Shown here one piece after another: positions 4,677 through 52,057 of a DNA stretch of 64,000 nt (within the stretch, counting starts at the first letter, position 1; the number at the start of each line of letters is the position of its first letter). The stretch lies in the NCBI GenBank assembly GCA_039679645.1, contig JBDKUO010000005.1, forward strand, positions 1 to 64,000. Direction: 5' to 3'. Source of the stretch: Armatimonadota bacterium. GTDB lineage: Bacteria > Armatimonadota > UBA5829. The position numbers and the translations under genes were made by a program. The notes beneath the pieces are model-generated. The model was not told where the DNA came from. It was given only the letters and a program-made list of their open reading frames with translations, and ran no database searches.

Positions 4677-5167
4677 CTCTGCTTATCCAAAAAGTTCGGC
4701 ACTGCATGCTTGTGAGCAGGACCGTAGGCGGCATCCAGCTTTCTGCGCTGAACCGACGTTTTTAGCGCACGTGAGGTAGATTCCAGACGCGATTTGAGAA
4801 TTATCTCGCACTGCTTTTGGCAGTCAAGTATTTCCTGGGCGAGCGAATCAGACTTGCTCTTTTGCACAAGCAGTTCACTTGCAGCATGTCTCAACTGCCC
4901 ATCCGCTTGCCCGACGGCATTTCTGGCGGTTTCAATCAGAGCTTCGTCGTCTCTGGTTTGCCTGCATATTTCGACAAATTCCAAGCACTGCTGCCCGCGC
5001 TGGGCAAGAATACTGTCAATTGATTCGGAAAGATCGTGATCAAGAGCCGTTCGCAGAGACAAGCTTGACTGAGCTATTGAGATCAGATGCTTGTTTTTTT
5101 CTTCAAGGAGCGCAATATAATCCCTGATCCGACTTGCGTCTGCCCTTGTCGATGAGTGCTCGGTCAT
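4673..5167 (-). CDS. FliT-like coiled-coil flagellar protein
   Basis: 164 residues, almost entirely helical and heptad-rich, without signal peptide or recognisable motif. It sits directly after fliS, with which it overlaps by 4 bases (ATGA), and it overlaps the peptidase gene in the same way. Position, size and helical character match the FliT/FlgN class of export chaperones, which bind hook-associated proteins such as FliD. The sequence alone does not prove this; a general coiled-coil protein remains possible. Confidence 0.6.
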   Translation of the reverse strand: MTEHSSTRADASRIRDYIALLEEKNKHLISIAQSSLSLRTALDHDLSESIDSILAQRGQQCLEFVEICRQTRDDEALIETARNAVGQADGQLRHAASELLVQKSKSDSLAQEILDCQKQCEIILKSRLESTSRALKTSVQRRKLDAAYGPAHKHAVPNFLDKQR

Positions 5168-5565
5168 GCCGCATTCTCCCTCAATGAATCTTCCCTCAGG
5201 ATCCTCTCTGCTTCCACCCAGGCCTCCTGCAACTGAGACAGTATCCTTATTGCCTCGGCCAGTGCAGCCTGATCCTGTTGAAGATTGGCTCGGGCGAGTT
5301 TCTCTATGACGTATGTATAAAGGCTTTTCAGCCTGCCTACAAGCACTGGATCGATATCTTCTCGAAGTGTCGAGAGGAGTTCGGCAACTATTGCAACTGT
5401 CTTATTTATATATTTGCTTTGCTCCGCCAGGTCGCCCTCTTTCATCTTTTGAGAGGCAATATGCGCGAATTTGATCGCGCCTTCATAAGCAGCCAGAAGC
5501 AGCTTAGCGGGAGAAGCAGTAAGAAGCTGGTTTTGCTGATATTGAGCATAACCGTCTGTAGGCAT
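5164..5565 (-). CDS. fliS: Flagellin export chaperone FliS
   Basis: 133 residues. The opening YAQYQQNQLLTASPAKLLL and the LYTYVIEKLARANLQ segment are typical of FliS, the four-helix cytoplasmic chaperone that binds the C-terminal D0 region of flagellin and keeps it unfolded for type III export. Length is normal for the family. It follows fliD by about 100 bases and overlaps the fliT-like gene by 4 bases. Confidence 0.93.
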   Translation of the reverse strand: MPTDGYAQYQQNQLLTASPAKLLLAAYEGAIKFAHIASQKMKEGDLAEQSKYINKTVAIVAELLSTLREDIDPVLVGRLKSLYTYVIEKLARANLQQDQAALAEAIRILSQLQEAWVEAERILREDSLRENAA

Positions 5566-7774: not shown

Positions 7775-9211
7775 TTATCGGAACAAGGACAATAGGTTCT
7801 GTCCGCTGGAATTTGCCTGCGAAAGCATAGAAATACCAGCCTGCTGCAGGATCTGATACTTCGTGAAGTTGACCATTTCCGAAGCCATGTCGGTATCGCG
7901 AATCGTTGATTCGGAAGCCGAAATGTTCTCGGATGCGACCGTCAGTGAACTGATGCTACTTTCCAGAGTGTTCTTCTGAGTAGCGCCGAGGTTGGCTCGG
8001 ATGGTGGAAACGTCGGCGATAGCCTTATCCAGAATGTCCAACGCATCCTGCGCGCCGGAAGCTGTGGTAACATCGATGTCGGCAAGAGTCTTAGCTGCGA
8101 CAGCGCCTATGCCGAGGTCAGCAGTAGCTGTCGAAGCGATGTTGATCTCTCTGGTCTGGCCCGAGTAAGCGCCCACCTGGAAGACCAGGCTTCCAGATTC
8201 CGTGGAGACCTGTGCGCCTTTATCACCGGTTGCGGTAGCGGCAGCCACTGTTAGAGCAATCGTGTTGCCCAGGGTGTCCTGAAGCACAGTGCCGTTTCCT
8301 GATGTCCATGACCCATCCGATATGGCAGTAGGAGCTGCATCAACCAAGTGGGTGACTGTGGCCTCTGCATCGATGCCGGTTTTGGCATCAGCAGTCTTTC
8401 CCATAACAGCTGTTGCACCAGCGCCACCAACATACGAAATTGCAGCTTGTCCGCCATAATCCTGGCTTGTCAGGACAAGATGATCGGAGCCATCATTAGT
8501 TGCGACGATTCCTGTCTTATCCGTATGCGCATTGACGGCTGCTATCGCATCATCAATGTCGTCACCAGTGGCTAGATTGATCGCGACGGTTGTGCCATTA
8601 CCTGTGAGATTGAATGATGCGTCTGCTGCCAAAGCAGTACCAAGATCAACTGTGCCGGTTAATTTAGCCTGCGCAGCGGCTGTAGTCACGTTCACACTTA
8701 CTGTATCCGTTGCAGCCAGCGTAGTGGCATAGTTCAGATTAGCGCCGGTGACGTCCAGGCCGGTAACTGTGGTCTTAACACCAGCGGAGCCATCGAGCAG
8801 TTTCTTCTGGCCGAACTGGGTCTCTTCGGAGATCTTGTTGATTGATGCGAGAGCATTTGCTATCTGCTGCTGGTCTGCAGCAACAGCGGCCGTGTCGTTT
8901 GCACCAGCGTTGGATGCATGCACTGCTAGGTCTCTCATAGAGCCCAGAAGGCTGTTGACCTGGGTAAGAGCGCCTTCAGCGGTCTTTATCATGTTGACCG
9001 CGTCACCCGCGTTGGATATGGCCTGATTCAGACCGCCAACCTGCGCGCGCAGTTTCTCGGAAATGACCAGTCCCGCCGGGTCGTCCGCGGCGTTGTTGAT
9101 CTTATAGCCCGAGGACAAGCGCTCGATGCTCTTTGAGAGGGAACTGTCCGATGTGGACAGGTTCCGATACGCGTTGAGAGCTGAACTGTTGAAATTGACT
9201 TTTAGACTCAT
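7775..9211 (-). CDS. Flagellin (copy 1)
   Basis: 478 residues. The conserved D0/D1 N-terminus carries IERLSSGYKINNAADDPAGL (about residues 29-48), and the C-terminus ends in ESTIRDTDMASEMVNFTKYQ and a final LLSLFR. Between about residues 150 and 370 lies a Thr/Ala/Asp-rich variable D2/D3 insert, so the filament surface is elaborate. It contains no cysteine. A strong GGGAGGA box precedes the ATG. No sigma-28-like promoter with the correct -35 was found in the 200 bases upstream, so it may be read from the flagellin 2 promoter. Confidence 0.95.
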   Translation of the reverse strand: MSLKVNFNSSALNAYRNLSTSDSSLSKSIERLSSGYKINNAADDPAGLVISEKLRAQVGGLNQAISNAGDAVNMIKTAEGALTQVNSLLGSMRDLAVHASNAGANDTAAVAADQQQIANALASINKISEETQFGQKKLLDGSAGVKTTVTGLDVTGANLNYATTLAATDTVSVNVTTAAAQAKLTGTVDLGTALAADASFNLTGNGTTVAINLATGDDIDDAIAAVNAHTDKTGIVATNDGSDHLVLTSQDYGGQAAISYVGGAGATAVMGKTADAKTGIDAEATVTHLVDAAPTAISDGSWTSGNGTVLQDTLGNTIALTVAAATATGDKGAQVSTESGSLVFQVGAYSGQTREINIASTATADLGIGAVAAKTLADIDVTTASGAQDALDILDKAIADVSTIRANLGATQKNTLESSISSLTVASENISASESTIRDTDMASEMVNFTKYQILQQAGISMLSQANSSGQNLLSLFR

Positions 9212-50446: not shown

Positions 50447-51691
50447 ATGCGAGGCACATCCTTTTGGGTAATTGCCCTGGTTGTTGTTGTTGGAGCCGCG
50501 TTAGGAGTTGCCGGGGGAAGTTTCCTGGCTGTAATACTTCCATCCATGCGAGCGACAGGAACCGGCTGGGAGTCGCTGCTGAATGGTCCTTTCGGCAATA
50601 AGCGTCAGGTCAGAATATTGATGATGGGTGAGGACGACACTTCAAAGCGCAATGCCAATGGCTACGGTCTGTCGGACACGCTTGTGGTAATGGCCATCGA
50701 CACCAAGACCAAGGAAGTGCGGGCGGTCTCCATCCCTCGCGACACAATGGTCGAAATTCCAAATCATGGCACATGCAAAATCAACTCGGCTAATGTTCAT
50801 GGCGGCCCTAAGCTGGCCATGCAGGTCGTTCAAAACCTTCTCGGCGTGCCTATCGACTATTACGTCATGACCAACACCACTGGCCTCAGAGGGCTGGTCG
50901 ATTTGGTCGGCGGCGTATATATTGTCGTCGACAAAGACATGCACTACAACGACAATCATGGTGGTCTGCATATCAACCTTCATGCGAGCCCCGATAAGCA
51001 GCTTTTGAGCGGCAGAGAAGCTGAAGGTTACGTGCGATTCAGACATGACGCGACCGGCGACAGCGGCTACAAAATGAAAGACGGCAAGATGGTCGCTGCA
51101 GGCAGGATCGTGCGACAGCAGTATTTTATGCGCGCGCTTGCAAACCGGGTCTTGAGCATTTCGACCAAACGCGGGCGAGCGGACGTATTGCGCCAGGCTT
51201 ATGAAAAGAAATATATAATGAGCAACCTCAACCTGTCCGACTGGGACGGTCTGGCCGATTTCTTAAAAGATTTCAAGCCTGAAGAGATGACTATGAACGT
51301 TCTTCCGGGTCACCCGCAAAATATCCATGGAGCCAGCTACTGGGTCGCCGACATGGACGAGGCTCAATTAGTAATATCGCACAATCTGCTCTTCCTTGGA
51401 AGCAGCAGTAAGGATGCGCCCAAAATCGAGGTCCTGAACGGTTCCGGCATAACGGGAGCCGCGCGCAGGGCTGCAGTAAAATTGCAAAATGCGGGTTTTG
51501 AAGTAACCCACACGGATAATGCGCCGTCCGATTATCCTGAAGGCTGTATTATAACGCATAAAGGCAGAACTAAACCGGTTGAACAAATTGCAAAGCTGAT
51601 GAACTGCAGTGACATTCGCGAGGAATCAAAGTTAGATAGTAAGAATAAAGCGGATATAACAGTTATCGTCGGACGAGACTACAGCGACTAG
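50447..51691 (+). CDS. LytR-CpsA-Psr family protein with LytR_C domain
   Basis: 414 residues. One N-terminal membrane helix (about 6-30), then the LCP catalytic domain: GEDDT, SDTLVVMAIDTKTKEVRAVS, IPRDTMVEI, KINSANVHGG and VRFRHDATGD. A C-terminal LytR_C domain (about 325-410, IEVLNGSGITGAARRAAVKL) follows. LCP enzymes attach polyprenyl-linked glycopolymers to peptidoglycan or other acceptors outside the membrane. In an operon with nadD and rsfS, a common neighbourhood. Confidence 0.93.
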   Translation: MRGTSFWVIALVVVVGAALGVAGGSFLAVILPSMRATGTGWESLLNGPFGNKRQVRILMMGEDDTSKRNANGYGLSDTLVVMAIDTKTKEVRAVSIPRDTMVEIPNHGTCKINSANVHGGPKLAMQVVQNLLGVPIDYYVMTNTTGLRGLVDLVGGVYIVVDKDMHYNDNHGGLHINLHASPDKQLLSGREAEGYVRFRHDATGDSGYKMKDGKMVAAGRIVRQQYFMRALANRVLSISTKRGRADVLRQAYEKKYIMSNLNLSDWDGLADFLKDFKPEEMTMNVLPGHPQNIHGASYWVADMDEAQLVISHNLLFLGSSSKDAPKIEVLNGSGITGAARRAAVKLQNAGFEVTHTDNAPSDYPEGCIITHKGRTKPVEQIAKLMNCSDIREESKLDSKNKADITVIVGRDYSD

Positions 51692-51706
51692 CAAGGAGTC
51701 AAAACT

Positions 51707-52057
51707 ATCGAAACACAAGAAAAACTGGACACAGTAATTAGAATACTCAACGAGAAGAAGGCCGAAAATATCGAGGTGCTGGATGTAGCCAAGCGAACGC
51801 TTTTGGCTGACTATTTTGTGGTCTGCAGCGGCACATCCAATACCCATATCAAAGCCATCGCGGATGGGCTTTTGGTTGACGGCAAACAAGCCGGCCTGCG
51901 CAAGGACCATGCCGAGGGTTATACGCAGGCAAAGTGGGTCCTGGTAGACTACGGAGACGTGGTCGTGCATATATTCGCAGCCGAAGAGCGCGAGTATTAC
52001 GACATCGAATCTCTCTGGAAAGAGGCCGCGGTCAAGCTGGAGCGAGAGACTCAATAA
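51707..52057 (+). CDS. rsfS: Ribosomal silencing factor RsfS
   Basis: 116 residues if read from ATC at 51707. VLDVAKRTLLADYFVVCSGTSNTHIKAIAD and GYTQAKWVLVDYGDVVVHIF are RsfS signatures; it binds L14 and keeps ribosomal subunits apart during starvation. The first ordinary start codon is GTG at 51776, which would remove the conserved N-terminal helix (LDTVIRILNEKKAENIE). AAGGAG at 51693-51698 lies 8 bases before an in-frame ATC, and the stop of the upstream gene is in the same frame, so ATC is the likely start unless the sequence has an error. Confidence 0.85.
   Translation: METQEKLDTVIRILNEKKAENIEVLDVAKRTLLADYFVVCSGTSNTHIKAIADGLLVDGKQAGLRKDHAEGYTQAKWVLVDYGDVVVHIFAAEEREYYDIESLWKEAAVKLERETQ

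Follow-up and report, generated by a model that had tools for sequence, protein, structure and literature searches.

Sequence comparisons support a conserved non-AUG start codon for the ribosome silencing factor gene rsfS in a family of Armatimonadota, with possible control by IF3

The window, a stretch of 64,000 nucleotides from an Armatimonadota bacterium (contig JBDKUO010000005.1), carries a gene for the ribosome silencing factor RsfS behind a LytR-CpsA-Psr gene (Table 1). Read from an ATC codon, the protein matches PF02410 with 115.7 bits (curated cut-off, 21.6), its residues 9 to 104 covering profile positions 2 to 98 of 98. The gene is single-copy in the source genome, and the RsfS of the nearest named record (UBA5829) is 91% identical to that of the window. 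Family membership and a full-length alignment to ribosome-bound chains (such as 9q40 and 6sj6) suggest that the protein binds uL14 and blocks subunit joining. The upstream TAG stop is followed by a single C, the AAGGAG motif, the 8-nt spacer TCAAAACT (51699 to 51706), and the ATC, after which the codons GAA ACA CAA GAA AAA CTG lead into the RsfS domain. The first-pass annotation had placed AAGGAG 8 bases before the ATC and had reported no ATG, GTG, or TTG between the upstream stop and the GTG at 51776. Both observations were borne out, and none of the three codons occurs in any frame within 51689 to 51775. The sole CTG in that interval, at 51725, is in frame with rsfS. Because the TAG lies in the rsfS frame, no in-frame start is possible further upstream. 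Folding of the leader RNA was unremarkable (z of -1.3 and -0.4), and no Rfam family matched at the rsfS leader.

Table 1. Features at the rsfS locus, in window coordinates
Feature	Positions	Strand	Remarks
Upstream LytR-CpsA-Psr gene	50447-51691	+	TAG stop at 51689-51691, same frame as rsfS
Shine-Dalgarno (SD) motif AAGGAG	51693-51698	+	8 nt before ATC; counterpart in all 13 non-ATG relatives
Probable rsfS start codon ATC	51707-51709	+	Relatives, onset of selection, register of solved RsfS chains
rsfS coding sequence	51707-52057	+	116 residues; stop TAA at 52055-52057; PF02410 match
rsfS codons 2-23, N-terminal segment lost with a start at GTG 51776	51710-51775	+	pN/pS, alignment to solved chains
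GTG, first canonical in-frame codon	51776-51778	+	Rejected as start: no SD, not conserved, 23 residues lost

Several lines of evidence indicate where translation of this frame begins. When the ATC is taken as residue 1, the numbering is identical to that of solved RsfS proteins (residue 3 falls on residue 3 of 2o5a, 2 on 2 of 9q40, 8 on 8 of 30qz, and 3 on 3 of 6sj6), so the ATC occupies the position of their initiator methionine, and codons 2 to 23 align to residues 2 to 23 of the solved chains. Codon-level selection sets in at the same place. Within the genus, pN/pS is 0.18 over codons 2 to 16 and 0.12 over codons 2 to 23, compared with 0.85 in the same frame upstream; within the family, the corresponding values are 0.45 and 0.33, compared with 0.87. 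The two wrong frames at the rsfS start give values of about 1 or more. Purifying selection thus acts on codons 2 to 16 and not on the DNA upstream, which places the beginning of translation in this frame at the ATH codon or immediately beside it. That conserved N-terminal coding precedes the GTG at 51776, as first claimed, is upheld by the genus value for codons 2 to 23 and by the alignment to solved chains, and the proposal of a start at ATC is now well supported by relatives, protein register, SD motif, and selection alike. We conclude that AUC at 51707 is almost certainly the rsfS start.

The window belongs to a family of uncultured Armatimonadota, and the gene was found in all 15 genomes of this family that we compared. 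At the aligned start position, ATC occurs in seven of them (L001, L003, L004, L005, L007, L008, and L015), ATA in four (L002, L010, L011, and L014), ATT in one (L012), ACG in one (L013), and ATG in two (L006 and L009). The presence of ATG in relatives had been named beforehand as a finding that would overturn the proposed start, and 13 of the 15 family genomes lack ATG there. Those 13 carry a start other than AUG, GUG, or UUG, together with an SD motif, at a conserved place, and GGAG or GAGG stands 6 to 9 nt (in most, 8 nt) before every one of the starts. The recurrence across genera of the family of an AUH codon, of the SD spacing, and of coding constraint from that codon onward is more than chance would give. 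Four relatives have a canonical in-frame codon 6 to 18 nt upstream of the ATH codon (GTG and TTG in L002, TTG in L004, GTG in L010, and TTG in L011), so another start is possible in those four. In three genomes from other families of the same order, an rsfS ATG lies three codons further upstream. Across the family, the start codon ends in C, A, or T and seldom in G; taken alone, this avoidance of G is not significant, as 4 of 17 fourfold sites are also free of G in the same 11 genomes. In a tree of RsfS, IF3, and HPF, the two genomes with ATG (G011 and G012) sit on long branches; its resolution is too low to give the number of codon changes. The ACG start of L013 has GAGG 8 nt upstream; ACG is a second-position near-cognate codon and serves as a start even less often than AUH.

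These relatives also bear on the readings in which the ATC would not be a start at all. ATC, ATA, and ATT are all isoleucine codons, and an internal isoleucine, reached by stop readthrough or frameshifting, would be conserved if translated. However, the in-frame stops 3 to 13 codons upstream vary in place among the relatives, the sequence upstream shows no coding constraint, and the same place reads ACG in one relative and ATG in two others. Nor do the two other candidate codons offer a convincing beginning. The GTG at 51776 lacks an SD motif, is not conserved, and as a start would remove 23 conserved residues, and the CTG at 51725 likewise lacks an SD motif. Taken together, an internal isoleucine or a true start at either of these codons is highly improbable. 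The draft state of the assembly (69 contigs) raises the question of a sequencing or assembly error at 51709, the true codon being ATG, but 12 other separately assembled genomes carry ATC, ATA, ATT, or ACG at the aligned place, which effectively excludes a miscalled base.

Whether the lineage is generally loose about start codons was addressed with a survey of 336 ortholog pairs in 213 groups, drawn from about 1.4 Mb of stretches from five genomes. The survey flagged 44 pairs. Those without a canonical codon near the alignment start on both sides were the rsfS pairs and four artefacts. In three of the artefacts, the alignment begins before the gene (accA of G007; window 4679 to 5272 on the minus strand, with ATG at codon 79; and position 191205 of contig C2 of G007, with ATG at codon 32), and the remaining one is an antisense shadow. 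The weaker flags, which were traced in part, mostly come from low-identity or partial alignments. Once these artefacts had been traced, rsfS was the only one of the 213 groups with pairs in which neither member has a usable canonical start. The gene for IF3, infC, was flagged by a looser test; it was found in 13 of the 15 family genomes and starts with ATA in all 13, and in eight further readable Armatimonadota it also starts with an AUH codon. The infC ATA mostly stands behind an extended SD motif (AGAGGTGAT) about 6 nt upstream (G000:C9, about 8082 to 8591, locus L111; homologues L099 to L110). In 13 of 14 genomes, the gene for HPF has ATG and an SD motif at the corresponding position; the remaining one (G010) is badly aligned there. 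These cells appear able to initiate at AUH codons, a use that, as far as the surveyed genes extend, seems limited to infC and rsfS. By these comparisons, the rsfS start is real, conserved, and rare.

Weak starts of rsfS are also found beyond the family, where our start calls rest on SD motif and register and are less secure. TTG with a good SD motif is a very common rsfS start across the Armatimonadota (many loci in L112 to L175 and L268 to L307). In family f18 (L118, L125, and L130), the frame opens with TAA-CTG, a strong AAGGAGG stands upstream of the CTG, and the in-frame TAA directly before it makes an upstream in-frame start impossible. A further genome, G027 (L299), has CTG behind AAGGAGG. 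In f18 and G027, rsfS appears to start with CTG. In the window's family, the gene for HPF and the majority of the surveyed genes begin with ATG, unlike the TTG-started rsfS found across the phylum. Almost all of the Bacteroidota rsfS loci examined offer ATG. The E. coli ortholog, ybeB, starts with UUG (PMC10917681). The TTG, CTG, and UUG starts elsewhere indicate that weak starts recur for rsfS, with AUH as the extreme form, and selection for weak rsfS initiation may be general.

A weak non-AUG start of this sort is otherwise best known from infC, and E. coli pcnB also uses an AUU start. To our knowledge, very few bacterial genes besides infC keep a start that IF3 rejects. The autoregulated infC (AUU, AUC, or AUA) resembles the present case in that a conserved AUH start stands behind an SD motif in a gene of the translation machinery; it differs in that rsfS does not encode IF3, so that control would act on another gene and would not be autoregulation. 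IF3 destabilizes 30S complexes on starts other than AUG, GUG, and UUG, infC being autoregulated in this way, and it represses such weak start codons in E. coli (PMC5472188). The Streptomyces sigR gene, with a GUC start, is repressed by IF3 (PMC5472188), and like rsfS it is a gene other than infC whose start is of the kind that IF3 would reject to keep expression low. However, its codon is another one, its product is a sigma factor, and its regulation is experimental, whereas for rsfS it is proposed from comparison. Weak start codons are conserved in Staphylococcus aureus at infC (AUA), ccpN (AUA), and cvfC1 (AUU); in the last two genes, the weak codon was shown to reduce initiation (PMC13009471). 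These two share with rsfS a conserved AUH start and a clear SD motif in a gene other than infC; they differ in their unrelated functions and in an extended SD motif, compared with the ordinary one of 4 to 7 nt in rsfS. The E. coli rsfS encodes the orthologous protein and also has a weak start, UUG (PMC10917681), but this codon belongs to the three canonical bacterial starts, and AUC, AUA, AUU, and ACG do not. Judged by its codon, rsfS belongs with infC, sigR, and ccpN among the genes that conserve a start of the type that IF3 discriminates against.

On this basis, we propose that the initiator tRNA would start the rsfS mRNA at the AUC at 51707, held there by the AAGGAG motif 8 nt upstream, and that IF3, by rejecting AUH and ACG starts, would hold RsfS synthesis low. 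A shortage of IF3 relative to 30S subunits would raise RsfS output, in parallel with that of the AUA-started infC. This IF3-dependent reading of rsfS is plausible and gains strength from the AUA start of infC in the same genomes. We infer that IF3 would be the sensor and that the control would matter to the cell. As a whole, an AUC start, kept weak across the family and with IF3 holding RsfS low, is probably the best explanation, though not by a strong presumption. RsfS is described in PMC7125091 as binding uL14 on the large subunit and preventing its joining with the small subunit. IF3 and RsfS would thus work against subunit association, each acting from a different subunit. More tentatively, a single signal, the ratio of IF3 to 30S subunits, could set the supply of two subunit-separating factors through the AUA of infC and the AUC of rsfS, in a circuit joining initiation fidelity to ribosome silencing. 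An AUC-started rsfS in genomes with an AUA-started infC makes this connection between initiation fidelity and the shutdown of ribosomes directly testable. Among the open papers that we searched, which include few subscription journals, none reports an AUH start of rsfS. For annotation, gene callers restricted to ATG, GTG, and TTG will predict RsfS proteins in this lineage that are cut short or wrongly extended.

The main rival to IF3-dependent control accepts the AUC start as real and takes it merely to keep RsfS scarce, IF3 levels varying too little for regulation. Too much of a factor that keeps subunits apart would block translation, and weak rsfS starts are common elsewhere (TTG in many Armatimonadota, apparent CTG in f18 and G027, and UUG in E. 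coli [PMC10917681]), which suggests selection for low initiation. Such a brake on dose without regulation is a serious possibility, yet we lean against it: UUG would give low output outside the class that IF3 rejects, and the family has moved among AUH and ACG instead. Ribosomes finishing the LytR-family gene might also restart at the nearby ATC, the identity of the codon then being of minor importance. The upstream stop lies 15 nt before the ATC in the window and 1 to 12 nt before the start in L004, L012, L013, and L015. However, it is 73 to 128 nt away in six relatives with ATH starts (L002, L003, L005, L007, L008, and L014); coupling is therefore not a conserved feature and does not explain the conservation of the start, and we consider termination-reinitiation very unlikely as the explanation. 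The 128-nt spacer between the LytR-family gene and rsfS in L002 contains an imperfect inverted repeat (CCCCTCTCCCCACCGCGGGAGAGGGTTAGGGTGAGGGG) that is absent from the 15-nt spacer of the window.
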